Source of the DNA: Sinohyriopsis cumingii
Taxonomy: Eukaryota > Mollusca > Bivalvia > Unionida > Unionidae
Assembly: GCA_028554795.2 (NCBI GenBank)
Contig: CM068826.1
Location: 105,872,602-105,936,601, forward strand
Reading direction: 5' to 3'
DNA: 64,000 nt
Positions 26,303-63,847 of the stretch are shown piece after piece. The notes beneath the pieces were generated by a model. That model ran no database searches and was not told the origin of the DNA. It was given only the letters and a program-made list of their open reading frames with translations. Both the position numbers and the translations under genes were made by a program. Each line of letters opens with the position of its first letter. Within the stretch, counting starts at the first letter, position 1.

Positions 26303-29300
26303 TAAAAGAATACTTAAAATTCCGTGTACATGAGAAGAATACAAGCTTGCTCCAACTCCTTAAACTAATTAATTGAGAAAAAGTTCTAAGTAGTTATACT
26401 TTAATGATTATTAAATCTGGGGGCAAATTTGCGTACCACCAAAGTTTCACATATTCATTGGCCATATGGCTCACACTTGAATTCTTATATGCTCACTTGA
26501 AGGAGATATTTATTCTCCTGCAATATCGTCGTCTCTGACTACGATGTGGTCGGTTCGGGTGTGAAAACTCCTTGTTGATCTCTTAATTTTCGACTTGTCA
26601 GTAGACCAGAAGAATTCCAGAGCGGCCTGCATTTCATATTCTCTTGTCCCGTCATAAATCTCCGGCTCTTTAATTATCGCTCTCTTCCTCGACCGCCTCT
26701 TCTCTCCAGTTTCAACGTCATCGGTTCCTGTGCCAGTATCTTTCATCGGTAGTGGCGGAAGAATACCATGTCTGCCTGTCGGAGTCAAAGTAAAGAGAGG
26801 ATCTCCATCAGGAGATGCTTCATCGCCTTTGTCAGATTGATTTTCCTCCTCCTCGGTGACTGGATAGACCATCTTCCGGTACCGGTAACACAGTAAGAAG
26901 ACAATGATTGCTGAGGCGACGAGAATTATACCAAGTACGACGCTGACAGCAATAATTACTGACATTAGGGTGCCAGTGTCGTCTGTTTGAATTTTTCCCT
27001 GAACAGTGTTCGTTCCATTTAAGGCAGGATCCCTTTCACGTACTCTGACCATAAGTACAGCAAGCGCTTCAGGCTGGTTGCTTTGCACCTCTGCTGCCTG
27101 AATAAGATAGAAAAGCTAAATGTTTTGCAAGAAGGATTCTTATATATTGGTATAACATATGTTATTTCAGAATATGCCTACATTATTATTAATTGCTAGG
27201 AATTTCTCAAGTGATTATTTACCTGCAGAAAATCATTCCAGTAATTAATTATGAACGTATTTGAAATTAAAACGGTGTGAGATAGAATCAAATGAAGATT
27301 CATGTACATATAAAATACATGCCGTAGAGAAACATCAGTTGTCATTTAATAAGATTTTAAAATAAGAAATGAAAGTATTCATTTTCTAGACTAACACATT
27401 AGCTGCGACTCAGTCAAAATAAAGTGTTTTTGTTATATAAAATGCTGACATCAGATGACTTTATAACATAGTAGTAGTATATGGGGTTAGATTAGCCTCA
27501 ATGGGAATTAGCATTAAAAAACACCCTGGGCTAGTATAGCCTCAATGGGAAATTTAACATTACGGAAACCCCTGGGCTATTATAGCCTCAAGGGAATTTA
27601 ACATGGGAAAAAATTGTGGGCAAGTTGAGCCTCAAGGGAATTTAACATAGGCAAAAAAAAAAAAAAAGTCTTGGGCCTGTTGAGCCTCAAGGGAAAATGG
27701 AACAGGGTCGGGACCCTATTTTAATAGGGTCCCGACCTGATGAGTCTATGAAAATGGAACAGGTGAAAATTGAAACAGGGAGGGGTCTCTATTTTTTTTT
27801 CAAAAAAAATAAAAATAAAAAAGGGGTAGGCAATGAAAGTCAAGGTCTTTTCGAGAGATAGGAGTGGCCCTGAAAAGGGCCTTTGGTTTTCCTCTTCTTC
27901 TATTTCCTCCACTTCTTCATCCACCCCCTTATCTTTCCTAATAATCCTTTCTTCTTCTTCTTTATTTCTGACTCTGGTAACCAGTCAGGATGGCCCAACT
28001 CTCTGAACTTGGTCTGTATCTTCATCCAATTCTGATTTAGCCTCTCAAACTCTGTCTGTTTCTTTTTGTTTTCCTTATCTTTTCTTTCTTTACTCCATGT
28101 CTCTTTAATCTTCTCTACTTCTTCCTCCATTACTTTTCTCATCAGATCTTCCCTTTTCTTCATCTTGTCCAACCCCCATTTTACATTCCTCCACTCTGTC
28201 CAATACAATATCTTTTCTAGGAAGCACCGGACTTGGATGACATGATCCAGTGCTTCCTTCAAACTTCCCACTCTAACATAAGGTGGGTCAATGAAGCTTT
28301 TTGACTTATTGACTTCTTCTTCTATCATCCCTGCTATGATATCTCTGGCTGCCTTTAGACCTTGAACTTGACTGGTTACCAAGTCTTTCATATCTCCATG
28401 CCTCCATTCCTTTTCTATTCTTTCTACAACATATTCTACATCCATTATCCAAAAATAGATGTCTCTCAATAGATTAAATAAAACTGATACTTGAGTCATT
28501 TTGTCTCGGTTATTCCGTAGAATGGTGTCAATGACGAAAACTGTGGGTTCTTATACGAAAAGCGCGGACGTGAAGGAAAACATCCCCCTAAAACCCAAAA
28601 TTACCTAGATCATCACTTAAAACGCGCGGACGTGATGGAAAACATCCCCTACTTTTCTCTTCTCATATTATCTACTATTCACATACGCGAAGCAGCAATA
28701 AACAAACCCAAAATCTACTATCCACACACGCAAAGCATTAAAATGAAACCCAAATCTACTATCCACACAAACTTACTTGATCACTTACAAAACCCAATAA
28801 TCTACTATCCACACAAACGTACGTGAGCGCTTACAAACACAAACACATACACTCACACCAGAAAAGAGTCAGTGTTTATATTCACACTACTCTACATACA
28901 CACATTGGCAAATCGATTACTATTTCTTTTCTAGAGATTGGAGTAGCCCTGAAAAGGGCTGTTTGTTTTGAACTCCAGGCACCTGGTTAATGGTTGCACC
29001 TCCCCGGCCTGGCACCGCAAACGCATCTTCTATCCAATCTCCTTTCACTCTTTTGACTGGGAGCGCAGAGGGAGGATGATTGGCTTCAGCACCCCAATCC
29101 TCTGTCTCTGGAATTTTATACAACATCCTCTCTCCTATTTTCTATTCCTCCTCTTCCCTCTGTCTTCTCTCCTCCTCTTCCTTCTTTATCCTTCCCTCTT
29201 CTACTATGGCCTCTGCAGCCAGCTCATTCACTATATGCCTGGCATATTCCAGGTGCACATGAAGTTCAAGCAGTTTTTCAAGTCTGCTGCTCATTCTACT

Positions 29301-29632
29301 CATTTTCTAGTGTTGATCAATCAACAAGGGTAGCTCGACTGCCGAGCGATTTTCAATTTATAGTTAAAACGCGGACGTGAAGGAAACATCCCCCTAAAAC
29401 AAAATTTATATTATCTAGATCATAACCAAACAATGCGCGACCTAAAAGAAACACTCACTGACTTTTATATACTACCTATCACTATTCTAAAAAATTTTCA
29501 TTAAACAAATAATATACTATCCACATACGTAAAGCAGTCAAATCAAACCCAAATCTACTATCCAACACTTCAAACAACAAAAAAACATTATCATGATCTA
29601 CTATCCACACAAACGTACTTGAGCTCTTACAA

Positions 29633-29665
<33 letters not shown>

Positions 29666-32600
29666 TTCTAAGCAAGATAAACAATTCATGTGCTTATACA
29701 CGCACTTCTATTTTTTAACTTATTATAGGCAATCGATTGTTATTTCTTTTCTAGAGATTGGGGTAGCCCTGAAGAGGGCTGTTTTTTGTGTGCGAAGTTG
29801 AAGCTAGGGCGAGCTTTTATATTCTAAGAATGCGACGTCCTCTGACGACAGGCTTTCTGACGATAGGTCTGCTTCTTCGGAAAGAGAAGAAGAACTCTTT
29901 GGTGTCGATACGACAGTCGACAAAGTCTCTGTCAGGTTCAGGTTGCTGCTGCTGCTGCTGCTGTTACTGTTGCTGCTCTCTCTGCTGTTTCTGAAGTCTG
30001 TACTTCTCTGTCCATTCTTCTTTCTCCCTGTTAATTTCTTCTCCGAAGAGCTCTTCTATCAGGTCTTCAGTGACTTTTAACATTCTCACATTCTCTATCT
30101 CTTCAGGATTCGGTATCAGACTGTGTCTGACCCTATGCAAATTCACGTAGGCTTCGTTTAGCTTAGCTAGTCTGGAGCACATCTTCGTAGGAGGATGAGT
30201 CGACAATGAATGGTTAGACTGTTCTTTTCTTCTTCAGTTGGATTTAAGTGGTGTTCGCTCGCAATGAGCATGTACCACTGGTTTATTTGCGCACGGCGCA
30301 ATTTTTGATTACTCCTGAGGGAAGGAATGGTGCCACATCCCTTAGGCTTTAATGTACTCAGAGAGTACTTTTTGATTGGGCCATTAGTATCTGGAACGGT
30401 AGTTGCATGTCCAAATACTAAATGTATGGCCTATTCATGAGTAGGAATAGCACAAACCTACACTCATGTATTACAGTTGCATTGAGCCGCCCCAGGTGTC
30501 AACCCAAGCAGTATGTAACGCCAGCTGCCATTGGTTGGCACCTATGACGTCACATTAGAACACCTGGACTTGTGGCAAGTGGAAATCGTTCCACATCTTG
30601 CCACGTTGTACGAAATCCGAGCGTGGTAAAGGAGGAAAGGTGCTCGACAAGCCAGCCATGGATGTTGTGTACTTCCTGAAACGCTAGCCCGTACTTATTT
30701 CAAATCGAGTCCAGTTATATTAATGGACATAAAAATACCAATAATGTGTAAGCCACCTTTGCAATTAATCAAATTTTTAGAGTTTTTATCAATTTTGAAT
30801 AAATTTGATCGAACAAGTTTAAAATTTTAGTGTACATAATGTACTTTCAATATTCTAAAAAATATACCAATCGGCTAAGTCAAAGTGACTTATAAAAGTT
30901 AGAATCACGCATAATGTGAACAATCAGTAAAAAAAATTTTGACGGCGGTACCCAATAAGGTCAAATTTGGTTTAAATAAAGTATTATCAAATACGGCTTT
31001 CTGCCAAATGAAAGCCGTGTACATTAAGGCAATGGTAGCAATCTTTTGTTTCTTCTTTCTTGTTCTTCATAGATTGCTATCGTTCTGGAGCTGCAGGTTA
31101 GCCGGTGTAGGTAGCTGATGCGGTCCGAAGTTTCTCGCATACTTTCTTTCTGGTATCTCAAAATTCCCAGTAAGATGATGCGAGTTCGTTCATTCTTCGC
31201 TCAGCTTTGTTGTATAGTTCCCCATAACACAGACAAAGCTTTCAGCGGTGTGCTTCTCACAGCTACCCTCTGTTGGTTTACAGGGTTTAGGTGGAGTGCT
31301 GTTTTTAGCACTTCCTCCCCGCACTCTCTGTCAGTTGGCCGCCAGTTAAGAGCTGCTACCATCTTAATCGTCTTTGCCGGTCATGTAGGTATCTCAAAAC
31401 AGCAACGTTGCTTTAGTGAAGGGCAGTTATTAAGCATTAGAGTATTTTACTCTACTATTTCCAGTGCTGTGGGTGCATTCTTTGTTCTGCACTCCCAACG
31501 CACGTGTTTCTTGCTTTTCCCGCTCATTCACCGCTGCTGGTTTGCCGGTCCTGCTCTGTCGCTGTCCACTGCCTGAATGATGATGATGATGACGATGGAG
31601 ATGATGATGGTTAGAATGGAAACTTCCCCGCTTTTTAAAGTCAAAGCGCGGACGTGAAGGAAAACATCCCTACACGGTTTTCGAGTCGGAACGTTTAATG
31701 AGTGTCATGGGAGGGATAGAGAGAAGTCAAAGAGCATGAATCAAGATTCCTATAGCCAAACAAACCACAAAGACATTTTTTTCAAAACACAACATTTTTT
31801 AAAATTCAAAATCACTTAACACTAACAAACAACTATAACATTTTTAACAATAATCTAGCAATATAACATCAAACATTTTTTTCAAATACCAAACATTTTT
31901 TTTCAATTAACACATTATTTTGGACAGGGCTGACAACGTTGTGAATGAAATTGTGATTTCCACTGTTGGAAGTCATTAGGCCATTGATGGACACTACGTT
32001 TCCTAGCTTGAGACAAAAGATAAGCATAATGGTCACAAAACCATCGATCTACTTTCATATCGTTTCTAGAAGAAGAACGAGGATCAAAATGAGTCACTAA
32101 ATGTTCTAAGGAATAGCCCAGGCTGCGATGATGCAGAAAATACACACAATATTGTCCACACACCAAGGAATCTGTGCCTTGTAATTTCACATTATTGAAT
32201 CGGGTGGTCTGAGCATTTCTTCTCATAAAGTCAATGATATCGTCTTCTAGAGGGGGCAATCCATAGGAATCGAAATATTCCACACATCCTTCTTGAGGAA
32301 AGTAGACGGCTACCCATTGGGTTCCTGGGAGATGACTGTCGTCCGTGTTGATCACATAAGCTTGATGGTCTTGAGGTTTGCGATGAGGGAGTTCATCTTT
32401 AGCACAGACGACAGGATTCCAAGAAGCAGTGTACGAACTATGGTTCAAAAGATAATAAAGTTCCCAGGTATCAATTTGTGTTTTTTTTTTCTTCTTCACA
32501 GGTAATGATAAGTGATCAATTCGATCCTGACTTTTTGCTTGAAAATGTCTGACAAGTAAAAGGCGTTTAGCTCCGACTTCTTATTCTGGTCAAAGAGAGA

Positions 32601-35600
32601 TTCGATGCGAAGGCACTCCAGAGACGTTAATGGAGGAGAAGAATGTTTATCCAAGCCTTTATACCACTCGTTCAACACGAATTCTATCTCGATGAGACCC
32701 CAAGCTTTGTCCAGATATTCGTCCAATTTTTCTTCTTGACTCAACATCAGACATTTGTCGTGTTGAATTTGACTGGGATGATCGTTGTGACATCCATAGC
32801 ACTCTTCCTTGATCAATTCTTTCATTATATCTGTCAGGAATGTAGCAAAACAGGAGACTAAATGGGCTTCTTGTTCTGGCCATCTTGACTTCATCATGAC
32901 AACTTCTTCGTCTTTGTCTTTGGATTCTTCTTCCAGGGTCTCCTCACATTCCATGTCCAAAGTTTCTCCACTAGGTAAAGAGGGATAAAAGTTTTCCATA
33001 GGTTCTAATAATCTAGAATGACTTCTCTTAAACTGTTGATTTCTAGGATACTGTCAAATTCTGCATACAGGAGGACGTTCACTGTGTCAGGTAGAGGATT
33101 AGTAAACTGAAGTTCCACACGAATCTGGCCGGATTTTATAGGGTGGAAATGTCCCTCGTCGCTGCCTTGGTCTGGAGTGAAATCAAACGCCCACAAACCG
33201 TAGCGTCCTGTATAATCCTCGTACGATATGTCGTGACTGGTGTTGGTTAATAACTGTCCGGTGGCTTCGTACAGGGACAAGTACGACCTCAAGTAATTCC
33301 TGTCACCAAACTTAGGCTCAAACGGTCGGGTACACAGTGTCTTGCCATCGCGACTGACTTCGATCTTGGCTACGTTTTAATGATGAAACAGGAAAGGATT
33401 TTCGTTGTGGACTCCGTTGAAGGCTGAATTCTTGACGATACCAAGGACCAAACGCTTGGGTAACTGGCCTTGGAACAGATGATCTTCGATCATGGATCGC
33501 TGTCCAGCAGGAATGGTGAACGTTTTTACTTCCACGCGTCGTATCGGGTACTTGGCGGTCGTTCTGCTCAACGTTTGACTGATGTCGTTTCCCACTTTGG
33601 GTAACACTTCCACGCGTCGAACGTAGAGCCTGGCTTCTTGGATGATGGTTTTGTACTCGTTAGCATGGGCCAACAAATGGAAAGCGGTACTGCTACGATT
33701 CAGTCTCAGGCGAATATCCACCCCGTTCATTAAATACTTTTCTTGTAACCACATGTCCAAATGCAAACGATCCATCAGTTCTAAACTACGTCCTTGCTGA
33801 ATTTTATTTCTACATGTGTTAAACCCCACATTGTGAGGATCGTCATCTGCTGTGAGGGCTATATCGTTAAACGTGTTATCACCCGCTGTGTCAGGTTTCC
33901 ATACCACGCAAGTATCCAGATGAGTATTCTTGGCTTCTTTTCCGTACGTCAAGAGATTTTCCAGGTAGGCACGATACGGGTAAGTATCCATGCTGCTACT
34001 GACCAGTTTGTTATTCAAGTACAAGTCCACTTCGCTGAACAAGGAATGCATGAAATTATTGACAGGAGCTACTCTAGCATCGCCTCCTGGATTGGTATTG
34101 TCCGTTTTGATTACTTTGACTTTCAAATACAGGTAACTGCTATTCAGATCGATGTAATCTTCGGGTTGACCTTTGATGTCAAACTCGATGGGAGCGGAAT
34201 CGGTCAAAGAGGAGACGGGGTGAAATTCCACCCATTGGGATTCTTGCATGGTCATCATGGTGGGTGGCATGGCAAACAGATCTAGTTCCGACTTGGAACA
34301 AGCGCAAAACTCTCGGTGCATCATTTTATTTTCTTTCTCAATAATCGAAAACGTCTAAGTCTCGAACGGTTTTTCTTTTCTTTGTCTTTCTAGCTTTAGA
34401 CGTGTGAAGTCTGGTAAAAGGGTGTTTTCTTCGTCGTCTTTTTTGCCTTGTCCTTGCTGTGGCTTCAATGAAGTAGGAATTCCTGACTCGGTAGCGTGTA
34501 GGGCATTTATATGTGTTTCTCGTCGGCCCAAAAGGTCTTTACCCGTTTGTAGCAAGACATTTTTGCCGGCCTTCAAGAAAGCTTCTTTGGGGTTTTGTTT
34601 GTCGATGATGACATTTTGGAGAAATTCTTTGCCGTGTGTCAATGCCGCATCTTTTAAGGCGTGCAATCCGCGTGTCACCATCGGTTTCAACACCGGAGCC
34701 ACCGAACGAAAAGCCGATTTTAACATATCTCCTAAACCGTGTCTTCGCTGTCGAGCAACCCCTCGGTACACTGGATACATGACTTACAACTCGTGAGAGA
34801 ACCGTTTTCAAAAATGGAGTTTCACCGTGACTTTTCCTTTGGTGAATGGAATATTTTGTCCCAGATCTCCTTTTATAGCAATGTTGACCGTGTCCAAATA
34901 CGACTTGCTGACAGGCAAATAGTGAGGATGTACAAATTCGCGGTGGACGTGGTAAGTGTTTCCACCTTCTTCGTCAGCGAGAGTGACAGAATCCACTTTG
35001 AAAGGAATGACACGCAGTAACGGTACGGAGGTGTGTCCCACCACGTTATACTCCACCACATCGGAGTACACAAAGATCAAATTCAGTCCTTGGTTTAGTT
35101 CTACCGGGAAACGAAATAACTTGCTAAAAGAATCGTTGTCTGAAATGACTGGTAATTCGTTTTTCTTGATCATGGCCATTCTCGTGTCCATGTCCCCGCC
35201 CAACATGTCAAACAATTCAGGACAAAATATAATAGAAATGATTTTACCTCCGTCAAATTTCATCAGGAAACGACGAGCTACTTTGTGGTACTCCAGGGTG
35301 ACACTTTTTCTGACACTTTCCAAAGCTTTCAGAAACACAACATTAAATCTGGAGGTAATGGTACTGACCAAATGTTGACCACTAAAATAATAGCCTGGGG
35401 GAATGAACAAGTGGTAGGACCACTTTTGAGTTTTGTCATCATAGTTTTTGTGATCATATTTGACATGGGTATTCAAGTACTTTTGCATTTGCTCGTCATG
35501 AACTTCCACCGTAAAAAAAATTTGATTGGGAAGGACATTGAGGACTTGGGTCGGGTGAATGATTTCCACTAAAGCCACTTCCCAATGGGCTTCGTGATCT

Positions 35601-38600
35601 AATTGGATGGTCTGAGGTAATTTGACCGTGTAACAGCACAACGTGTTCTTGGGAAACACCTCCATGGAACTGTCACTGGGTAAGGTTAAGTAAAATTGGT
35701 TGTTATTGCTCATAATTCCAGAGTTCTGTGACTGTCCGAGGGGTTACTGGACGTCAGAGACGTGTCTCCGCCCAAAATGGGGTTGTTGTTATTGGAGTGG
35801 TGAGTGGCACTGGCACTGGACACAAGGTTCCCGTTGTTCCCGTTCGAGGTGAATTTCAGGGAGGGATTAGGAAGCAGGTAACCGATGCAACTGCTCAATA
35901 AAATGGTCCACAATTGTTTGTCTCCTTGTTGCAAACTCAAATTGGCAATGGCTGCCCCGATGACACAATACACCACGAAGATTTGGCAGAAAAAGACGAT
36001 TTGCGTTTTAGGCACACGTTCTCCACACCACACCCACAAGGTTTTTTTTGTAAATCTTGCAGAGAAGAACTGGGTGAAGAAGTGGTCGACGTAGCTGCGT
36101 CTGTGTAAAAGGGCATGATGGTCACTTCTTTTTATAGTCGATGACTTGCGAAGCGTCGATCCAAGAATCAAAACTGGGTGGATATCCTTTCCAACGTACT
36201 TTGACTTCTTTGACACGTCGTTTGCCTACTTTGCGGGTTCTGCGTTCGAGAATGCTTTCGATGTCGTACACGTCGTCTTCTTTTTTGGTGACACGTTGTA
36301 ACTCGGGCAAATAAAACGTTCCTTTGAGCACTTCTCCGTTCATGTCTTCCAATTTATAGACGGCAGGATCACGACCATGCACTCGTACAGTGACACGAAA
36401 CCATTCGGTCGTCCAGTTAGGTAAATAACATTTGTCGAAAGTGCGTTTGGTTTTACCAATGCGTACCCAATCTCCTACGGCCAACACTCCACTTTTCTTG
36501 GGGACAGCTCTCGTCGGGGACGTACCAAACAGGCGATCAGACACCAGCACTTCGTTCTCGGGAGTCACCTCTTGTGGGGCACGTCCAATGCTTCGATGGC
36601 AAGATTGGTTGTACGCTTGCACCAGGTGCGGTAAGATGTCGATGTACTTCAGAGTGTGGTGATGCGTAAAATATTTCCACATGCGTTCTTTCAAAGTGCG
36701 TTGAAAACGTTCCACTATGCTGGCTTTGGTTTCAGGATTCTCGGTGGTAAAAAAATGAATGTCACGTTTCTTTAATTCTTTTTGGAAAGCTTGGTTCAGA
36801 AATTCGGTGCCTTTGTCCGTTTGCCATCGAAGAGGGTGACGACCGCTTTGTTTCAACACCCGTTGCAGGGCTCGCACTAACTCGCTGTTCGATTTGGAAG
36901 TCAAGGGCAAATTTGGAAAAGACGTCGATGACACAAAACAAATATTTGTAGCCGCGATTGTAGCTGGCCAAATGAGAGACGTCGGCTAATTTGGCTTGCC
37001 ATTGATGATCGATGCCTTCCACTCAGGTGCGACTTCTGGGAAAACTTGCGTCGAAGGGGTTTGTGTAAAGTGTAATTAGCTTGTTCTTGTAACCATCGTT
37101 GTACTTGAGGTAAACGGAGACTTTTCAGTCGAGTTTTGGCAGCACGATACAATTTTTGAACTCCTGCGTAACCTGCAGGATGGGAGGGATCGTAGTAAAT
37201 GCTGGCTAACACCTTCTCCATTTTTTATGTGTTAATAAGTCACCCACTCTTCGGTGATGTTAGTTTGGGTGGGACAAAAGGGTGGTTTGGAAACGGATTT
37301 ACGTGTGCGATGGGCTACGGGAGAAGAAGTCGAAGGTAGTGGTGGAGGTAGCAATGGAATGGCTTTGGTCTTCTTTTCTTTTTTCACTTCTGGTTTCCCT
37401 TCTTTCTTTTTCACTTCTGTCGAAGGAGGAGTTGACATCATCTTTTTAACCCAAGCTTTCATTTCTTCTCTTTGGGTGTGGGGGACGGGGTCAACAAGGA
37501 TGCTGCAATCTTACTTGACATGGGAGCTGCTGACGGTGTTTGAAACACTTCTCGTATATCTTCTTGCTCAGGCCTTCGTGGGGTAGCATCTCTGGTGACC
37601 CCTGGGGATGGTAGTAGTGGTGGTGGTGGTGGTGATGGTGTGGGGAATGGACTTTTCATCAAGGTTTTATAATCTTTTAGAGTGGGAAGAGCTGTTTCGT
37701 CTAAAGCTTTTTGATGAAAGAGTTGCAGTAGTTGCAAGAGTTGACCGTACTTTTGCGATTTTTCTGTTTCGGACAAATCTTGGCGATCCATCAAGGACTG
37801 CAATTCGTGTTGTAACTGGGACATCTCGCTAAAATTGGGATTGGGAGGTAAATGCGGGGTGCGTTGTTCTTGCCAACGATGCTATTCCATCCATCGTTTG
37901 TAAGGCACTAAAGCTAGTTTTCGTCATTCCATGGGATGTCAGGGGTCAATTCTGAGATCTTGGGACTTCAGAGGGCCTTTTTATCTTGCTCCCACCAGTC
38001 CTCCCAACACGGTTCCCAAGATTCCTTTCAGTACCGGACCTAACAAGAGGGGTAAAATTCCTCCACCTTGGACCAACATCTTCTTTTGTCCGATGGGGAT
38101 TTTCTTTTGAACCATTTGGCGCAGAACGTGACGATGTTTGCCTAAGCATTGTTTCTGGTGTTTGGACAAAGGGATCGTGCCTTTCAACACGTTCAAACAA
38201 CATTCGCACACGGTATCGATGACCTCTTTGGAGGCCGGTTGAATGAGCTTTTTTCCGCGGGTGTGGAGAAGCTTTGGACAGGACAGATAACATGTCCCCA
38301 TGTTTGACTAAACGTGGAGGCAGTCCTTTCCTTTTCTTTCCTTGGGGTTTAGAAGAGGAATGTTTTCTGGAGGGGGACATCTTTGCTTGTGGGTTCCGGG
38401 ACATTCACCAAACAGTCACTAACGGCGATAACTTAACACACGCCCTTTTATCTTTTTTTGGGGGGACAACCGCTTTGTCATAAAGGTGACAACGTTTTTA
38501 CCAAAATCGCCAAGGAATCCTCCCCTTTGTTGACGCCTCTTTTTCTTGGAACGACTATGTCTTTTCTTAGGGTAACGTCGATGCTTGGCTAAGCGCTTTG

Positions 38601-41600
38601 TCGGATGACGAGTCTGCCTTTGTCTCTTTCTTTTTTGACTTCTTGGAGGTGACATTTTTTGGAAGTTCACTAATACCCCTACTTGGTTGCAGGACTTTTT
38701 TTATACTGGAACGCGCCGCCGTCTTTACGTTGTATCAACTTCAGGACAGGCATGACACGTCGTGCAGGGGTACGTGACGGACTAAATCGAACCAGTTCTT
38801 GCTTGGACAAATCCAGTAAACTCTGTAACATGCCCGATCTTTCTTGGACTTTGATTTTGGGAGCAGGTACTTTGTGAGCCGCAGCCACTGCCGCTAAATG
38901 GGAGGGTCCTGCCACTGGGGAAGTTCTTGGTGTCATCAACGGAGAAGTTCTTGGTGTGATCAACGTCTCCAAGTACTCTTCAGTTCTTGGTGTCATCAAC
39001 GGAGAAGTGAATGAACTTGAGGCTACCGGAGACGCGGTCACCGCCGTGGCAGGTCGTGGTTTGCGAGTGTAAGGTTGCGTCCTGGCCGAAGTGCCTCTCT
39101 TGCGACTAGTTTTCTGTGGGCTTTTCTTTTTCTGGGGAATTTTTCTCTGTTTCTTTTTCTGGGGGCTTTTCTTTTTCCGGGGTGGTGACTGGTAAGAGGA
39201 GGGTCCCGCCACTGGAGAAGTTCTTGGAGACACGGGTCTCCTTGGGAACCTGGTCTTGCCACCGTGGCTCTTTTTCTTCTTCTTGGAGCTTCGTTTGACT
39301 TCTTTTTTCTTGGGGACAACTTTCGGAGCATTAGGATCCCATCTTAAGACAGAGCGAATGATGACCCCTCCTAGATTACCGCTCCCTCCAGGTTTCAAAA
39401 TGATTTGTTTTTTGGTTTGAGTGTCGATGCGGGGATCGGCCAGTTGGGTCAAAGCGACTTTGTTTCGATCGAAAAAACGTTTGGCTTGATGAGGAATCTG
39501 AATGATCCCTTGTAGTAATTGACGTGCTGTCACCGTGAACCATCGTAAGACTTCTTTGAGACTAGCTTCTAAGACACGAGCCCGTATTTGAGGATTTTTT
39601 TCTCGACTGATGCCATATAAGGCACGAATCAATTTGACGGGAAGATGCGACTGAAAGGACGTCATGTTCAAACTGTGTGAGACAGACGAAAAGTGTCTGA
39701 GGTATTTGCAGATTTTTTTGAGTGAAGTTAAGTCAAAGACGGAGACGTGTACTGGACAGGCCCTCCGTCTTGACACCAGTGGTGAAACAATTGGGTAAGA
39801 AATCGCAAATCATCGGGGGTCGTAGGTTTCAAATCGACGAGTAAATAGGCGTGTGGAGTTTGAGTGGCATCGTCGTACGCCTGAGTCAGCCAAGGCGTTC
39901 CTAACTGTTTGGCTAAGACTTGCACTTGCGATTTATCTCGAGGGCTTTTAAACAAGACCACGTAATGCGCATTGAGACTGATGGTGCGATGGGCTTTACT
40001 TTGTTGAAACAAATTTTGAGTGATGTAAACGACACTGGCATTACGATGATGCCCTTTGCGCGTGAACCAAAGTTTAATTTCTTCTTCGTCTTCTCCTAAC
40101 ATGTCGTCGAAAATGACCAAATGGGTTTGACGGGAGTCAGAGACGATGCCGTCGTCTTCTTTAGGAATGCCTTCCACAAACACGATGGAATCGCCTTGAC
40201 TTTCTCGCAAGAGGCTGTACGCCGATTGCCACTCTTTGTAACACCACACGATGCGTTGGGGTGGACGATCGATCAAATGATGTTTATGTTCGATCAAACG
40301 TTTGACAAATTCGGTTTTGCCTGAACCGAAAGGTCCAGCAATGAGCATGTTAAAGGGATGGCGAAGATACAAAGCCTCCCAACTGGCACGATCTAAGTGT
40401 TCGTCGATGACTTTGACAGTAGAGGAATAGGGAGCAGAGACAGCAGAAGTAGCCATAGTGTTAGGAATGTCACTTGTGACACGAAAATAGACAAGCCAAG
40501 AGTTTTTATGCTTTTTTCAGGACACGTTTATTGAATGTTTAAAACATGAATACGAAAGACAAAAATACATAAAAGCCAAAGGCTTAAGTACAACAATAAA
40601 AGGCACATCAAAATCATCAACGTAGAATAGAAACAAGTGTGTCTGTACAACATGTTTTGTGTAATGTTCTGACCAGTTCTATAGGGGGTAAGGTCACACA
40701 AGTGTCCTCCCGAAATGGTCTTTCAGGCATGTCCACGACAGTCCTGTCCTGGGTGACGGGTTCTTCTTCTTCTGGCATTGTCACTAACACAGGTTGAAAA
40801 GTGACTCTATTCCTTGAACAACTCTCGTGCATACTGGGCCACTTCTTGCATCCAAGCCTCAAATTCCCATTCTTTCCAGACACGGACATCTGTCCAGTGG
40901 GGGTGTAAGTCACAAGCTACACACACATCGTCATACACGTCTTCGGTAGCTAAAAGTTGACGAATCTTTTTTTCCCGTAGAGGTCGAGAAGTTTCCAGAT
41001 GAAAACGCAATACTTTGAGCAAAATGAGTCTTTCGTGACCATTTAAGCCCATTTGGGTGGTAAGTACTGATCGTAAAGAGTCCACAAGGAATCGGCTGGT
41101 AAACGAAATCCCAGAAAACAAGTCACTAATACACACATCACTTGTCGACCCAAATTGAATGGATACAGTTCTTGTAATAAGTGACGGTAATGATCCACGG
41201 TTTGAATAAGGTCATTGAGTTCCTTCCACGGAATCCGTTCAATCACTTGTGACATAAGCCGTGGCATGGATTCCTGATTTCATAGTCTCTTTATTTCGGA
41301 AGCAATAAAGGTACTTTCTAACTAGAGATCTTCGTTCTACAGTAGGGAATCTAAATATTGCATTCTGTAACCTACACTTCAGAGTTTGTTTAGATGTTTC
41401 CTCTTCCGCTAAGCAGATTCCACGTAAAATATGTTGGCAATCCTTTAACTCGTCTTCCTCAATGCGTTGCTGTAGGTGAATCTCGAAGTAACCAAAATCA
41501 CAAACATTTCGTTCATTCACTAACTCAAAGTGTTGAACAAGGTCTGACCACTGGAACAATTTCTGACGAATCAGTCCTGTTATATGATTCAGGTACCAGT

Positions 41601-44600
41601 GGTTAAACATCTGGTGACGTAACGGATGCAACTGTTCTTTACGTTTGACTTGTATTTTTTTGTCCAGTTCTCGATAAATGCGTTCTCTCAACTCCACAGG
41701 CAAAGCACGAATGTTCTCTTGTAAAGTATCCATGAATAGGTCAGTCAGTACAATTCACAATCTTCTCCTAGAGCAAAAGTAATCCACTTAGTAAGTAATT
41801 TCTGATCCACTGCCATTCAGGGTAACGTCCAAGAATCTCATTGAACTCTTTTGATGTAAACGGTCTAGAGTGATATAATAGGATGAATGCACACTTGACC
41901 CAGAGAAATCTAACACATTGATTAATTTTTTTCACTTTCCTCTTGTGAATTTCTCGACACAAAAGTTCTACAGTTACCCATTGAGATTTCACTCTGGCAA
42001 GTCCCTGCCAAACTTCCTTGTAAATCTTCTCTTGCAGTTCTTTAGGTAATGATTCAATATCGTTTTTGAATTGAAGTTTAAATACTGGTCTCGGTGATGT
42101 CCAACATTTGACTCCTAACCAATCTGGTTTCTTCTTCAACGACATGGTAAGTTACTTCAATGTCTCGGTCCCACTAAGGGTAAGTAATGACAATTCGGTG
42201 ACCAACGAGCATGTTCTAGGTAGGCCGAATCTTGTGGTTCCCAGTGGTGAAGTGACACACCGCAACTGAAGCACTTGACTTTATCCCCTTCGCCCAAGTA
42301 GAAAAATCCGGCTTTGGCTAATTCTTCGGGGGTCGGTCCTCCCAGATACTTAGGCCATTTTCCTTTGATCGATTGAAGACGATTTTCAAAGTCGCAGTAT
42401 TCCGACAAACGCACAGGAAACGAATATTCCTCTTTCACAGGTTCGTTTCGATGAGGGTTGGGTGACATGGACAAAAGTTTGCTCAGGGCTGGATGACATC
42501 CGTAAAGGGATAGACGTGAAGGTGGACATCCACATTTAAAATGAAACCCAGTGAAGTGTCCAAGAGGACGATCGGCATCGCTTTTGCATCCCTCAGGTTT
42601 GACACGCACAGCATCACTTTCCATGATAGGGGTAGTGACACTAAAGTTCCCGTGATGCTTTACGGCATCGCTAAGGCCACAGCGTACATCATCGTTTCCA
42701 TCGCAAGGCTCACAATCGCATTCCAATTCAGAGACCCCACACTTGAAGTGTGCCTGTCTGAACTTGTTTTGTGTTTCTCTGAAAGTATTCATCTTGTTCG
42801 CTTGGTCTTGGTAGTCACAATGAACTATCGATCTTGACCATAGCCCCTTTTTATGCTAGTCGCAATGCAGTCTCAAGCTTGTACATCGTTCCTTTTTCAT
42901 GTCTAGTTTTGGAAGGTACCGTCTCTAAGGTACCGTCATAATTGTACCGTAGTGTAATGGGTGGAAAGGCCATAGAAAGGTAAGGGCAGTGCGGAGACTA
43001 TCGAGTATGTTCCAGAATAGCTGAATCTTTATAGATACATAGATTCATTCGTAACTTCAGTCCACATGCGAAACACTGTACTTCGTATCCCAATCCAGAC
43101 TCAGGTCCCAAGTAGACAAATCCTATTCTAGCTAAAACATGCGAAGAAGGTAATCCTTCCCTATCCGTAGGCCATGCTTGAAATGTCCAACCGACAGGCA
43201 CAATCACAATAGTCAGGCAAGAAGACTGGAAAATGGTAGGGTTTGAACTTGGAGTTCTCATTGGATTTCTCACTGGATTCTTGCTGTGGCGAAGTCATCC
43301 TTCTGGTGGGTGGCTATCCACTTACAACCAATGTTTTATACCGACATGTCCATACGGCAAAGTAAAGTGGTTGGGAAGTCGCACTCGCTTCTGGTACACG
43401 ATTTTATAGACTTTTTCCAAGGGTCGACTGACGATGTGATGAGTGGGCAAACGTACAATCTTGTTGGGCTGATAGGTGGTCACTTTAAAGTGTTCATCTT
43501 TTCCAGACTGCAAGGCTTCTTTCAATACGCCAAAGTTCACCACTCGACTGGTACGATAATTCAGAGTCAATCCTTTCACTTTGCACTCCGTGTGCACTTC
43601 TCCTTGTTTGTCCCGGTATTGGTAGCCGTAATTTTTAGGACCGCCACTCGCGAAACTTAGCATCTTGTTGTCGGGGTGCTCGTCTGTCCAGGTTCCTAAA
43701 CGGTCTACTTCGATGTCAGGGTGCTGTTGACTCGGGTGATCGATGTAAATGCAACTGTCCGTGTCAAAATACAGGACGCGTTCCCCTAACAGTTCTAAAG
43801 CTTCGTACAATTTTAAGCGAGCATGAGCTGTCACGTAAGCCGCAATGATGACATTTCCAAAGGGGTCGTCTTGTACAAAGTCCAGATCTTCTTCGTAATT
43901 GACTAAGATCAAATTTTCGCGAACGACGTCCACGTGTTTCATGAATTTGGTTTTGTCGTGAATCATCTGGAAATAGCGGGAAGGTTCTGTCAAATATTCC
44001 GTCTTCGGTAAACACGGTCGTTGTGCCATTTTGCCCCACAAGCAATTTAACATCACTTTGGCAAACGATCGCCTGCCTTCGTTTTTCTCTATGTGATCTA
44101 AAGAGATGCCTTCTTGTGCCCAGTATTTCTCTTTGAATGTCTTTTGGTCTTCGGGAGTGTAACACCAGGACGGATAGCTACTGGCTTCTTGCTTTAGTTT
44201 CAGAAAGGCATCCACGTAGTCTGCGAAAATCCCTTTCTGAGTGGGGTCACCCTTGTGGTATTGTTGTGTCTTGGGAAAGTGACAAATTTCGTACACTTCT
44301 AACAGTTGGTATCCCGTGTCCAGAGCTTTGAACAATTCTACGCTGACCCACGTCCCCGTCAAGGTACGTTCTTCCTGGGTGTGCTGACATGGTTGATCTT
44401 GGTTACACGTTTCGGCACAAGTACGGCACAAAGGAAACATCAGTTTGCCTTGGCAATGGTGAGGTAACATGGCATGGTACAAGTCCGTGGGAGGCAAAAC
44501 TTTACATTTGATCAAACCTTCGTATTGTAGAATGTTTTTCAGGTCGATGTGATCCATTAACAATTGTGGATGCCCTGCAGGAAAGCGACAATATTTGCAC

Positions 44601-47600
44601 ACGTAGGGATACAGCGAACACACGTCCAAGTATTTGATTTTTTCTCCTTTCTCTTCGTCGGCTTGGTACAGCAAACAGGTGGCATTGGTCCTTCCTCCGT
44701 ACAAACTATCCCTCGGGTTCAGCGGGTCCATGAACTGGTAACTTTCCACGACACGTTTAAATTCGGGATCGGTTTTCAAACGGTGATCGTATTCGTGTTC
44801 CCACATTTCCACCACTTGGTATCCTTCCTGTTCTAACTTTAGGCGTCGCTGACAAGTGTCCTGGTACAAGTCTTCCATGGTTCGTTGTAAAAACTGATTT
44901 TTAGTGCCGCGATCAGGGTAACAGACGAGGCATCCGTGAAATAAGCAACCGTTAAACTCGCACACGATCTTGGGGTTTTCTAAGCCATCGACCGAATGCG
45001 TTCCGATGGTCTTTTCGCCTCCTCCGTTGCGAGCATGCTGAATCCATTTGCTTTCCTTGTCACACAAGTAATGTAGCCAGCGTAGGGCTTTGACCGAGTA
45101 TTGACGTTTGACATAGTTGGTCGTTTGAGGACTGATGACAGCCACGGTGTTTTCAGGCATGAATCGTTGTCGGTACACTAAGGAACACGCTTTGGCAATG
45201 GTGCAAGCTTCTTTCAAAGGATCGACCCCTCCGTGTTCCATGAACAGTTCTCGAAATTTTCCACAGCAACGTCGTAAAATGTCCACGTCGGAACGACACT
45301 ACTTTAACATTTCTTCCTGAAAGTCGAAAGGGTCGGAGGCATGGACCTGGTACCAAGCGTAGAAATCTTCTCGTTGTTCGGTACGCATGTTGTCGGGGTT
45401 GTAATAGTGAGCCTCAGGCAAATGGGGTAGAACGGCATGTTGAATGGCTTCCGTATTGAAAAAGTGTGGAAAGTACCCTTTAGCCATTTCTGTCATTCCA
45501 AACGTTTTAGGCATTCGACTCAAAGGCATGGCCAAATAGCTCATCGAGTCTTTAAACTGTACTTGTCCCACTTGCATGAAAATGATTTTGGTGGTTCCGT
45601 TCAAAGTGACTCTAGGATGCTCGGTACCATGTTCCGTATATTATCTGAGAAGAAACTGTCCATCGTATCCGGAGAAATTGTGAGCCATCACCGTGGCTTG
45701 ACGATGACAATCTCCGTAACGTTCGATGTCGTCTTGGCTCCACGACTTTTCGATGGGGTCTAAGACCCATCGAGCAAATTCGGCCAGCGTGTTCGGTCCT
45801 CGAAAGATTTTTTCACGTCCTCCAGGAATCTTGCTGCAGTGAGGGCAATAACTCAAGATAGGTTCTTGAATGCACTTCTCGCACGCTCGATGAGCCACGC
45901 AGAAATTAGGAATGTGAATACCGGTCTCTTGCATGCACTCGAAATCGAAAAAGATGAAATTGCCTTTCATCTTGTGACCATCGTCTTTCTCTGGTTGGGG
46001 TTGGTATTTTTGCATGTAGCATTGGTGTTCCAAATCCACGATTCGGTGACAAATGTGACATTTTTTCTTTCCTGAACATACGTGTGCCTTGGTACTATTG
46101 GTACGTATGCCTTGTCCACACGTAGGGCACAATCTCAGGAGTTGACAAGCACATTTCTGCTGTGAACCTTGCGTCTTCAATTGTTGTTGGTAACAGGTAG
46201 GGTTGACAAACGTGCGCAGACAAGCTGGACAATGCACTCGTTCTTGTCCTTCGTTCAGACAGGGTGGAGAGTCAAACATGCTGAGCATTTCGATCCACAA
46301 TGTTTGTGTTGCTCTCGATTGTTATAGCCATAGTCACATTTCTCACAGTAATAACTGTATCCCAGGAATCCATTGATAGTGCTAATGGTATCGAAATGGT
46401 CATCGTGATGATAAAGGTGAATGTATTTTCCGTCGTTAAAGTCTTTCCCTCGAAACAACAGAGACCCACGCACTTCTTGAGGGTGCACTTTCAAGGTGTA
46501 GCGTGGAGCTAGGATATCTTGCAATTTTTGCATTTCAGGAATGCCACAGGGTTCGTCTTTGGGTAAACCGGCTTGTTGTAACAGGAGTTCTGCTTCACTT
46601 CGTTGTTTGGCTCGGTCCGATTGTTAAATAGTTTTCCAGGCTCTTTTCCATTCTGCCGTGTCGTTTTTGTTGGCATAGGTTCGTCCCACCACGATAGCCC
46701 TGGCTAAACACATCTGGTCTTGAGAATTGTGAATTTGGACGAGGCTCTTTTTAGTGCTGCGAAGGTTGTTGACCAATAACACCTTATTGTGTTGTCCGGT
46801 CCTTTGAGAAGGAGAGACGTGGGTCATGTCCAGTGTGGCTTTTCCATCGGTGATGTCAAACTGGTCATTAGATTGTTGCACGTGTTGAATTTTGTCCATG
46901 ACTTTGGAAGCGGTCAATTCTGCAGGGCTGCTAAACTCGATCCAAACAAGGGATTTCAAACCGTCGTGTTGTATGGAAAGTCTCAAGCGATCGTCTTCTT
47001 TGGGTTGACATTGCCGCTTGAGTGTGGTGAGCAAAGAATCCCACATCACGGTGATGAACCCTTCTGCTTTCTCTAACGGTACGTCGGACTTGAAATCTTT
47101 AAACTTCACCGTGTATTTGTAAGCCGTGGTTCTAAATTTTCTAGAGGGACGCTTTACGGTCTCTTGAATGGAATAGTACTTTTCAGGGTTGATTAAGGGT
47201 AGTGAACTTTGTTTAGAGGGTTCGGATTCTGGTTCACTCGTGTCCTCTTCAAAATCACTGGCATGAATTTGTGCCAAGACTTCAGCCCTGGTACGAGGCG
47301 ATAGATCACGTTTCTGCCTCTTACTTTCTTCTTCTTTCTTCTCAAATGAATTGGATCGTTTCATCTTGAAAGCAAAAAGTCAAATGGCTAAAGTTTAAAC
47401 ACCATGGGCTACTTTATAGTCATGGCAGACCAGCGTATATGAAGGGTATGTGTCTTGTCCTTTCGCTATTCATTTCACTCTCAAACCGAGTAAAACGATG
47501 GAAGAGACTACCCAGATGGAACGTTTCATCAGAGCTTTGCGAGGGGTCATTAGAAAATTTTCCTCAGACCAGTCGTCGGACTATTCTCCTTCCTTGCGAG

Positions 47601-50600
47601 ATAAAAGTCAAGATACTTGCTATATCTGTCAGAAGAAAGGGTATTGGTCTTCAGAGTGTCCAGGCCGTCAAAAAAGCAAAACAGGGGTTAAAAAAGACAA
47701 AAGTCAAGATACCTGTTATGATTGTCAAGAAAAAAGACATTGGTCTCCAGATTGCCCTAAGAAACAAGAGGAGTCAGAAGAAGAGAGGGATTCTTCAGAG
47801 GAAGAAGAAGAGGAAGAAGAAGAGAAAGAAAGCAGACAGGTGAAGAAAAAGAAACAGAAGAAAAAAAGAAGAAGGGAAGAAAGTGAGGAGGAAGAGGAGG
47901 AAAAGAATGTGACTGTGAAGAAATTTAGAAAACAGAGAGAGTGAACAATGAGACAGAAGAAGTGTATGAAATTTTTAATGATGTTACGTTGTGAATTGTG
48001 AATTGAATTGTAAAATTTGTACCAGAATAGAAAGTCTATAAAACGTAAGTGTCTTTGGGTTTTGATTTTAAAATAAGAACCTACACTCACGCACACTCAT
48101 ATACAGACACGTACTACCGGGTAAAATGTTTTTTTTTTTTTTTTTTTGAGTTATTGGCAATTGAAAGTCTATCTCTTTTCGAGAGACGTGGGTGGCCCTG
48201 AAAAGGGCCTTTTTTGGTGCAGGGGTGAGTTTAAACAATCAACTTTAACTGTTTTAAGCCTTTGCCACGGCCAAGGCCTACTTCTGGACTGCGTACTGTT
48301 GATGATGATGATGATGATTTGGTTGAAATCACTAAGAGTGGTACCGTAGGCTTAGTCACAGGGTGGAGTGTTTAGCTCGGGAAGGTCGTATTCTCTTCGG
48401 TCGTAATAAAGAAGTCTGATACATTTGTTTCAGACTTCTTAACTCCACTAAAATGTCTAACAGTACCGTGACGGTTTGACTTTCACCCTCTTGTTTCTTT
48501 GCTGCTTCTTCTTCTTCTTCTTCTTTTTCTTACCTCTTCTTCTTGCTGCTGTTGCTGTAGGAGAAAAGCTTGTTCTGCTTCCTTTTGCTGCTGTATAAAT
48601 TTCTCCAATTCTTCTTTCTGTCTCTGTCTAAAATTCTCCACGTGTGGTAATGAAGGAGAAGGTGACGAAGGTTCTGGAACAAATTCTTGCGAGGTAAGAA
48701 AATCCACATAATCCCAATTCACCTCTTCTGAAAGTAAGTCCGGGTTCCTTTGGGTAGTCTCCACCGTCGGTGCACCCCAATTTATCGTTTTCTGAGTTTC
48801 CGTCATGTTGAAAAACTGTCGCGTAGATTGACTGCGCACAGGCGCTAGCGAATCTATATAGACCACATGACGTCACAGACTGGTCTCTTCGGATTGGACG
48901 TGGGCTGATTGAATTTTGTAACGCGTGTTTGGATTGGTCAACGAACTCAATCCGTTTCAATCCTTCCTCTCCCTATAAATAAGTGCAGTTCACTGCATTC
49001 CTTCACCTATTTTCGGCACCCCAACATGTGGACCGACGTACAATCTTCCACGCTTGTGTCTTCGATGATGTTCCGGACGGACATACCAATGTATACCCGA
49101 TCCAACTGGACAGTTATCCACAGGACAGACACCAGCCTGTGGATGCAAAGAATCTATGTGGAGCGTCAAGGATGCCTCAAAAGAGTGTTAATCTATGGTC
49201 CTACAGTTAGGCGCAGCCTAAGGACATGAAGAAGACCAATGCGGTGCCCTTTATGTTAATATACCTTAATATTAACATAAACCCAAAGGCCATTTTCAGG
49301 GCTACTCCAATATCTCGAAAAGATCTTGACTTTCATTGCCTACCCCCCCCCCTTTTTTTTAAAAACAAAAATAGAGACCCCTTCCTGTTTCAATTTTCAC
49401 CTGTTCCATTTTCATAGATTCATCAGGTCGGGACCCTATTAAAATAGGGTCCCGACCCTGTTCCATTTTCCCTTGAGGCTCAATAGGCCCAAGATTATTA
49501 TTTTTTTTTTTTTTTTGGCCTATGTTAAATTCCCTTGAGGCTCAACTTGCCCACGATTTTTTCCTATGTTAAATTCCCTTGAGGCTATAACAGCCCAGAG
49601 GTTTCCGTAATGTTAAATTTCCCATTGAGGCTATAATAGCCCAGTGTGTTTATTAATGCTAATTCCCACTGAGGCTAATCTAACCCCATATACTACTCAT
49701 AATATTCACATTGTTTTAAATCGTGTCTATACTTCTGCCGGATATAAGCGAGTTATTACGTAATGTCGATTGCAATGAAAGTAAGGGTGATTATATCATG
49801 CTTAAACCCGCAAAATTTTAAATAGTTATTATTTCCACATTTTTATTCACCTAAAATTTACATAAAAAATATAAAAAAATTATCTATAAATATTAAGGGG
49901 AATTGTTATGAGTATTCTTTGCTAATGAGTAGGCGGAACGGTCTCTGTTCAGTTACCTTGATAACTATTCTTTGTGATATCCAACTTGCTTGAGAAGCAG
50001 GTCTGACCTGATAGATGGTACCGTTGTTTATGTCTATGTCAAAGAAACCACCAGATGTGTCTAAAGAAAGTAATATAATCATGTCAGAAGTTATAACGAA
50101 TGTAAATCCATGCGAAGAATCTTAGTTTGGGTTGAATTTTCGTTCTCTCTAATACTTTTTGCGATTAATTGCTATGCTATTGGATAAAACATATATTTGG
50201 TGTGACCAACATTTTTAGCAGAAATAAATTGCAGACCTTCAGTGATTACACTATTGCTGGTACAAAGTAGTCCTGAAACGGTTAATAAATTTCTTATCTG
50301 TATTAAGTTAAATGAACCGTTACCTGTTAATCGTAGTCCTAAAGAGATAATGAACATAGTTAGAACTAGCAAGAATTACAGTGTGATCAAAATTTGCTAG
50401 CGTATAAAATTTGCATGTTACACTGGCAGACGCAAATATAGTTCCCTCTTCTTTCTGCAGGAGGTCAATGTATAAATTCTACATTTAATTGTCTTGTTTT
50501 ATTATCCGCCACTTCATACAGTTATCTGTATCAATCAGGCCGATTGTCCTTATCACATCAACGCTAAGTGTTCAGTCTTGTGTATTGCTGACGTTTAAAC

Positions 50601-63481: not shown

Positions 63482-63497
63482 GGCCCTTTTCAGGGCC
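63482..63497 (+). terminator. Histone 3' stem-loop, host locus
   Basis: AAAACGGCCCTTTTCAGGGC followed by CGCC is a perfect metazoan replication-dependent histone stem-loop. No clear GAAAGA-type downstream element was seen after it. Confidence 0.8.
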
Positions 63498-63847
63498 GCC
63501 TAGGGATATTAATCATTTACCAGAAATGTGTGTATATATGTCTTTATGTCTGTGTTTTGTGCAGCTAAGATTTTAAACCCCTTACCTTTCTTTCGTGTTC
63601 GTATGGCATATTTTTTTAATTATAAATAATTGATTATGTGTGAGAGTGTGTATCTATTTCATGTCCCCCTTTTTTACATCTTAACTCCCTCTTTTTGTGT
63701 GAGAGTATGTTTGTATGTATACGTGTCATGTTTGTGTATAAACATTTATAATCTTTTCGTCAGATAACAGGGGTGTATGTTAAATCGCAATCAAAATCGG
63801 TTGCTGGATAGTACGGTGTGTGTGGGGTGGGGGTGGGGGTATGTGTG

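Follow-up and report, generated by a model that had tools for sequence, protein, structure and literature searches.

Histone-type 3' stem-loops behind the terminal genes of a Polinton in Sinohyriopsis cumingii

To our knowledge, histone-type 3' ends are considered almost private to replication-dependent histone genes. Why, then, should signals of this kind lie behind the outer genes of a mobile element, and what might they do there? The question is raised by the window, a 64,000-nt stretch of DNA from the bivalve Sinohyriopsis cumingii (assembly GCA_028554795.2, contig CM068826.1, positions 105,872,602 to 105,936,601), in which a first-pass annotation had described a Polinton with five histone-like 3' stem-loops. 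In the part of the open-access literature that was searched, nothing resembling histone-type 3' ends on Polintons was found, nor any paper that brings SLBP together with Polinton, or with both Maverick and transposon.

The element and the genes at its ends

The element is a Polinton, with a protein-primed DNA polymerase B (PolB), an integrase with chromodomain, a packaging ATPase and terminal inverted repeats (TIRs). PolB (43322..46404, minus strand) was recognized by PF03175 (4e-23) and by tblastn with L001, a distant Polinton described below; it has 861 homologues at E <= 0.001 and matches an annotated adintovirus PolB (P0056). On the same strand lie a gene with a BIR (inhibitor-of-apoptosis) domain (42157..42792; PF00653, 7e-22), an A32/FtsK-type packaging ATPase (39728..40456; PF04665, 9e-7) and the integrase with its chromodomain, the frame of which is broken (36122..37218; PF00385, 3.5e-8; tblastn with the L001 integrase, 4e-41). 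This retroviral-type integrase is homologous to the L001 ORF bearing rve (PF00665). We tentatively take 33020..34324 (minus) to be the major capsid protein region and 32065..32376 (minus) to be that of an adenain-type protease; the regions were found by tblastn with L001 ORFs of 428 aa (4e-65) and 147 aa (5e-10), respectively, which carry no family label. The capsid-region frame has an internal stop at 33377, and a 315-aa piece of the region gave no Pfam match. The left TIR (27473..27890) starts with AG and was identified from the inverted arms 27473-27667, 27653-27809 and 27823-27890, and the right TIR spans 49279..49697. Compared by eye, the 6-bp flanks (target-site duplication), CATAGT (27467-27472) and CATAAT (49698-49703), are equal at five of six positions.

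Five gene types, A to E, end in a histone-type stem-loop; A and C are divergent at the right end, and E, D and B stand in tandem at the left. Stem-loops had been reported at five places, and all five exist on the strands given. The Rfam Histone3 model RF00032, with which a scan had been proposed, matches every one, and one of the five exceeds its gathering score of 34. The sites first listed at 27866 and 49288 are, however, two TIR copies of one site, leaving four that are separate, and the stem, given earlier as 5 bp, is in fact 6 bp long with a 4-nt loop. The strongest match (48169..48214, minus; 37.1 bits, E 3.2e-7) ends gene C, and that of gene B, with its downstream element, lies at the inner edge of the left TIR (27841..27886, minus; 33.9 bits, E 1.9e-6). 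Genes D and E end in stem-loops with an A-U closing pair (28919..28965, minus, 29.3 bits; and 29740..29785, minus, 26.1 bits), the loop of E being CUUC here. The gene A stem-loop, contained in the right TIR (49283..49328, plus; 20.5 bits), has decayed in the window copy to 4 bp. A 20-nt pattern allowing up to 3 mismatches was found at 6 places in the window, compared with 0.00 expected from 100 shuffles; the sixth, at 63482 on the plus strand, lacks a downstream element and was set aside. Chance origin of the sites is ruled out by the shuffles, the covariance E-values and the genome copies.

That each signal follows directly on a small gene is plain in the window for gene B (27900..28499, minus; 199 aa, lysine/glutamate-rich), whose stop lies 18 nt before the stem, and for gene A (49026..49229, plus; TATA box at 48974), where the distance is 58 nt; the frames of C, D and E are broken in this copy, and in other copies the arrangement is seen for all five gene types. 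Gene A encodes 67 aa here and 76-77 aa in most copies listed. The open piece of gene C (48483..48806, minus) encodes 107 aa, and its full frame encodes 183-196 aa in the six copies listed with one. Gene D (first open piece 29142..29303, minus) and gene E (open piece 29964..30182, minus) have longer frames in other copies. Judged by eye, the B, D and E genes resemble tandem paralogues. Pfam searches with genes A, B and C returned nothing over the cut-off, and the best PDB sequence match of gene A reached only E 0.41; a predicted structure of its product (pLDDT 55, four strands) was set aside.

Copies in the host genome and in distant relatives

All 75 scored RF00032 matches in the 2.9-Gb host genome exceed the gathering score, and all 75 loci were copies of this Polinton family; absence of the stem-loop from related elements, named by the first-pass annotation as evidence against its reading, did not occur. 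Of 50 class labels assigned by simple text rules, 22 were A, 16 B, 10 C and 2 unclear. The orientation with the genes that had been described was borne out in 16 left-end segments, each 5 kb long: a pattern scan gave no antisense stem-loop, and all 35 RF00032 matches in 13 of these segments lie on the gene strand.

We collected 135 distinct sites by a stem-loop pattern that did not require a downstream element, but that demands a near-intact stem and is hence blind to the fraction of stems decayed. Seventy-one of them had been selected on their RF00032 score, to which the downstream element contributes, and 64 had not. Among these 64 unselected sites, AAAAGA follows exactly 14 nt after the stem in 57, after 15 nt in 3, and is absent in 4; nucleotides 4-5 after the stem are CA in 55. 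The corresponding numbers are 68 (AAAAGA after 14 nt) and 70 (CA) for the 71 score-selected sites, and 125 for each feature among all 135, which share ancestry within one genome and are not independent events. For 118 sites the upstream 700 nt could be inspected: 109 of them have an ORF, 60 aa or longer, that ends within -60 to 400 nt of the stem, and 9 have none. The ORF ends 10-40 nt before the stem in 81 of the 109 (median 24); among the other 28, 25 stop more than 40 nt short of it, 1 stops 7 nt short and 2 read through the stem. When this rule was applied to the other strand, only 1 ORF end fell at 10-40 nt among 81 testable sites.

A similar arrangement was seen outside the family. L001, contig CALIZB010000033.1, is a Polinton that was deposited within a Bacteroidia MAG as a contaminant, and its PolB is 38% identical to that of the window element. 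Behind its terminal 89-aa C2H2 zinc-finger ORF it carries a stem-loop (RF00032, 35.8 bits), with 28 nt between the stop and the match. L001 thus shares with the window element the stem-loop behind a small terminal gene and AAAAGA after 14 nt, but differs in the kind of gene, in its loop (UAUC) and in having CC at nucleotides 4-5 and CA at 5-6. It is the one of four PolB relatives with the signal; L002 and L003 stop short of the element end, and L004 has no match in the approximately 1 kb past its PolB frame, where small ORFs lie. If such ends are a strategy of these elements, L001 suggests that it is an ancient one, shared by several Polinton lineages. Searches of the IMG/VR viral contigs with PolB and MCP yielded no relative. 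Stem-loop pattern matches there (4, 1 and 6 contigs) were taken as chance; all 11 contigs, presumably from bacterial viruses, lack the downstream element by eye, and the first four, which were scanned with RF00032, had no match at E <= 0.1.

A predicted link to host DNA replication, and its rivals

A histone hairpin with its processing signal behind the outer genes suggests that the element borrows the replication-linked way of making mRNA. Judging from sequence, genes A to E very probably give rise to histone-like mRNAs processed by U7 and SLBP and tied to host DNA replication. The small terminal genes are organized as replication-dependent histone genes are, with a compact promoter, often a TATA-like box, an uninterrupted frame and a 3' UTR some 20-30 nt long, followed by the stem-loop, the CA site and the purine downstream element at host histone spacing. 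Their pre-mRNAs would most likely be recognized by SLBP and the U7 snRNP and cleaved after CA without polyadenylation, and mRNAs with such ends would most likely be made and kept mainly during cellular DNA replication. The terminal genes may be early regulators.

The rival that survives best, although we consider it unlikely, is that the stem-loop stabilizes or times the mRNAs, many or most of which are cleaved and polyadenylated further downstream. A human H2A gene, reported to be processed in both ways (PMC9756948), offers a precedent. In L001 an AATAAA is found some 70 nt past the stem, and in the window an ATTAAA at 27725 (minus) stands some 140 nt beyond that of gene B. The window copy, however, has neither AATAAA nor ATTAAA in the first 120 nt past the gene B stop.

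Much less probable is passive capture, by which a host histone 3' end was acquired once and spread, functionless, by duplication and TIR homogenization. The A and B sites are indeed TIR copies of each other, and the apparent paralogy of B, D and E would allow the module to be duplicated alongside the genes. Host H3 and H2B ends (35.9 and 38.2 bits, respectively) have the same type of stem, CA at nucleotides 4-5 and AAAAGA after 14 nt, but beyond the downstream element their similarity to the element modules is not significant, and hence descent of the modules from a histone gene could not be demonstrated. Functionless spread also accords poorly with the stems themselves: those of A, B and C read GGCCC..GGGCC and those of D and E AGCCC..GGGCU, an exchange of A-U for G-C on both sides that may represent one or two events. 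Perfect stem-loops were present at all 10 partner sites of gene A and at 14 of 19 of gene C. Identity in the gene A stem-loop was 1.00, compared with 0.58-0.88 in other bins except the 4 nt immediately before it, which likewise reached 1.00; the gene A downstream element (0.88) was not above its coding neighbour (0.84-0.88), and the gene C stem-loop (mean pairwise identity 0.962) was little above its own (0.92-0.96). The retention of CA and of the AAAAGA register in the unselected sites and the separate case in L001 argue in the same direction. A signal acting at the level of DNA, such as a replication origin or a hairpin for recombination or packaging, that resembles a histone stem-loop by chance would suit sites located toward the element's ends, two of them within TIRs, but is scarcely credible, since the C, D and E sites lie outside the TIRs, orientation tracks the genes, and a DNA hairpin needs no loop sequence, CA or purine element at histone spacing.

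If U7/SLBP processing does operate here, it would be, within the literature searched, a new strategy by which the expression of viral genes is coupled to replication of the host's DNA. We regard as evenly balanced the broader proposal, again drawn from sequence, that a lineage of virus-like animal elements makes its accessory and regulatory genes as non-polyadenylated, S-phase-restricted histone-type mRNAs, with core replication and capsid genes unmarked, so that the type of 3' end would act as a built-in cell-cycle sensor. Since a single genome holds more than 100 intact signals, SLBP and U7 may become an object of competition between the elements and the histone genes. Such transcripts would tend to be overlooked in poly(A)-selected RNA-seq, and the element would offer a natural test system for SLBP and U7 requirements.

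Comparison with known systems

Like metazoan replication-dependent histone genes, the terminal genes have a 6-bp stem with a 4-nt pyrimidine-rich loop, CA at nucleotides 4-5, GAAAAGA 13 nt past the stem (the position it has in host H3 and H2B), a short 3' UTR and a frame without intron. Unlike them, they belong to the terminal parts of a mobile element, the D and E stems have A-U closing pairs, and the products of A, B and C, which were scanned, are not histones by Pfam. With Polinton/Maverick elements and adintoviruses the element shares the protein-primed PolB, the A32-like ATPase, the chromodomain integrase, long TIRs and AG termini, together with the putative capsid and protease regions; what sets it apart from them is that its terminal genes carry histone-type 3' ends.

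Anatomy of the Polinton and its stem-loops

The Polinton measures about 22.2 kb and is bounded by inverted repeats, which an inverted-repeat search placed at 27473-27890 (left) and 49279-49697 (right); its termini read AG..., and its 6-bp flanks, CATAGT and CATAAT, differ by one base. PolB (PF03175), an A32-type ATPase (PF04665), a chromodomain integrase (PF00385) and a BIR (inhibitor-of-apoptosis) gene (42157-42792; PF00653) all lie on the minus strand, and tblastn with open reading frames (ORFs) of the distant Polinton L001 (CALIZB010000033.1) located two further regions, which we take to be capsid and protease. This copy is decayed, with capsid, integrase and genes C, D and E interrupted. 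A search with its PolB gave 861 homologues at E <= 0.001. The 120 listed include an annotated adintovirus PolB, and several of the closest named homologues come from oysters. For one Saccostrea PolB relative (P0035), PF00653 and PF13920 (RING) are listed in the same protein.

The first-pass annotation had proposed histone 3' stem-loops at five places in this element, and the Rfam model RF00032 matched every one: 48169-48214 (-) after gene C, 27841-27886 (-) after B, 28919-28965 (-) after D, 29740-29785 (-) after E and 49283-49328 (+) after A. The five scores were 37.1, 33.9, 29.3, 26.1 and 20.5 bits (gathering score 34). Because the sites at 27866 and 49288 are copies of each other in the terminal inverted repeats, the number of separate positions falls to four. 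The proposed stem of 5 bp was one pair short, since the four better-scoring sites each fold into a stem of 6 bp capped by a 4-nt loop; site 49283-49328 has lost two stem pairs. No RF00032 match was found at E <= 10 in the core-gene stretch (29.8-48.1 kb). Stem-loops with a histone-type signal are thus a real feature of this Polinton. A perfect GGCCCTTTTCAGGGCC hairpin at 63482-63501 (+), outside the element and without a downstream element, could be either the remnant of a histone end or a chance occurrence.

Genes ending in the signal across host-genome copies

The host assembly (2,904,868,851 bases, 1138 contigs) was searched with RF00032. Because only 75 of 589,472 first-look candidates were scored, all 75 above the cut-off, these matches give a minimum count and form a selected set. 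Every one of the 75 loci carried protein or nucleotide matches to the window Polinton family, and no histone gene was seen in this selected set; the selection is strong, because host histone stem-loops of 35.9 and 38.2 bits are missing from it. The element sites scored 42.6-45.6 bits in 69 of 75 cases.

Together with 16 left-end pieces of 5 kb, these loci gave 135 stem-loop sites that differ from one another in their 96-nt context. Among the 118 with >=700 nt upstream, 109 had an ORF (>=60 aa) whose end fell -60 to 400 nt from the stem. The end lay 10-40 nt before the stem in 81 of the 109 (median 24); 25 others ended more than 40 nt before it, one at 7 nt, and two ran into the downstream element. 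On the opposite strand, the same rule gave an ORF at 25 of 81 testable sites, one of them at 10-40 nt. Orientation was consistent with the first-pass annotation: all 35 RF00032 matches at E <= 0.05 in 13 left-end pieces were on the gene B strand, beside one weak mir-297 match, and a pattern scan of all 16 pieces found no antisense stem-loop.

Five gene types (A-E) end in the signal. Gene A encodes 76-77 aa in most copies printed, gene C 183-196 aa (six full frames printed) and gene B 129-204 aa in two versions. Genes A and C are divergent, their stem-loops being about 1.04-1.08 kb apart in 29 of the 32 that carry an A or C label within the first 50 loci; the partner is missing in L021, L035 and L057. 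Of the 16 left-end pieces, 14 have a D site, an E site or both, with a downstream element, and in L066 and L079 only the B site was seen. In L046 (1565-2563, minus strand), and at the same place in L079, an open frame joins the protease region to gene B, its end still 23 nt before the stem-loop.

Upstream motifs were read by eye, under names that we assume to apply. A TATA-like box is present at many of the B and D starts printed, gene E has TTTAA in its place, and a CACGTCCGCGC-type element precedes B, D and E alike (L066-L081). CCAAT-type and TATA boxes precede gene A, and TGACGTCA and TATATA precede gene C; the ORF start of L001 has CCAAT and TGACGTCA and lacks a plain TATA box. The CACGTCCGCGC-type element of B, D and E does not resemble the CCAAT/CRE type seen at A and C.

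Constraint on the stem and occurrence in relatives

Conservation was assessed by reading the partner gene in loci chosen via the other gene, which avoids choice by a site's own stem-loop. Gene A partner sites had a perfect 16-mer in 10/10, with a mean pairwise identity of 1.00 in the stem-loop and the preceding 4 nt, versus 0.58-0.88 in every other bin; its downstream element (0.88) did not exceed the coding part (0.84-0.88) in conservation. For gene C, the 16-mer was perfect in 14 of 19, and stem-loop identity was 0.962; other bins ranged from 0.70 to 0.96, with the coding part almost equally conserved. Constraint is therefore clear for the gene A stem and weak for that of gene C. Across the 135 sites, the closing pair was GGCCC..GGGCC in 98 and AGCCC..GGGCU in 24, with pair-breaking AGCCC..GGGCC in three, GGCCC..GGGCU in one and other changes in nine. 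Gene types thus differ on both sides of the pair, possibly through a single event.

Four PolB relatives (L001-L004) in bacterial genome records were also scanned, and one carried the signal. The single match in L001 (35.8 bits, E 4.3e-7) sits in the outer part of the contig, where an 89-aa ORF for a C2H2 zinc-finger protein has its stop codon 28 nt ahead of the match. L004 had no match in about 1 kb with small ORFs; L002 and L003 stop short of any element end. The count is one in four, and one of the remaining three may be informative against. The records that contain these Polinton-type PolB contigs are bacterial metagenome-assembled genomes, and the contigs hence look like contamination by eukaryotes or their viruses.

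Putative processing signals compared with host histones

Open-access literature searches for Polinton with SLBP, and for Maverick with SLBP and transposon, found nothing; Polinton with histone and stem-loop gave no open-access paper on such 3' ends, judged by title, and the titles and abstract openings of the matches listed revealed no histone 3' ends on virus or transposon genes. Because the search was open-access only, absence from print is not established. In passages of an adintovirus-related paper, histone mentions concern histone-like proteins (PMC11071296).

The pattern defining the 135 sites demanded a nearly intact stem and no downstream element; for 71 sites the basis of choice had been the site's own RF00032 score, to which that element contributes, and for 64 it had not. 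A purine-rich element some 12-15 bp further on had been noted, and AAAAGA indeed follows after exactly 14 nt in 57 of the 64 unselected sites (15 nt in three more, absent in four) and in 68 of the 71 selected ones (absent in three). CA occupies nt 4-5 after the stem in 55/64 and 70/71, respectively. L001 likewise has AAAAGA 14 nt after the stem, but its CA is at nt 5-6 rather than at nt 4-5 as in most host-genome element sites. Most A-E sites (L009-L081) also carry TTGCC about 32-40 nt after the stem.

Host histone genes form a tandem array with repeats of about 8.27-8.29 kb. Matches lie mostly on small contigs (C310, C531 and C561 among them); 105 of the 150 listed tie at the top score, and the two of these with ends read are H3. 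According to PMC9756948, histone pre-mRNA is cleaved after a CA between the stem-loop and the U7-pairing downstream element, and this yields non-polyadenylated mRNA. Anatomy gives good support to the prediction that mRNAs of these Polinton genes would end in the same way. Host histones show no significant similarity to the A-E sites in the TTGCC region. The host H3 and H2B ends (two contigs; 35.9 and 38.2 bits) carry CA at nt 4-5, as most element sites do, and their AAAAGA likewise begins after 14 nt.
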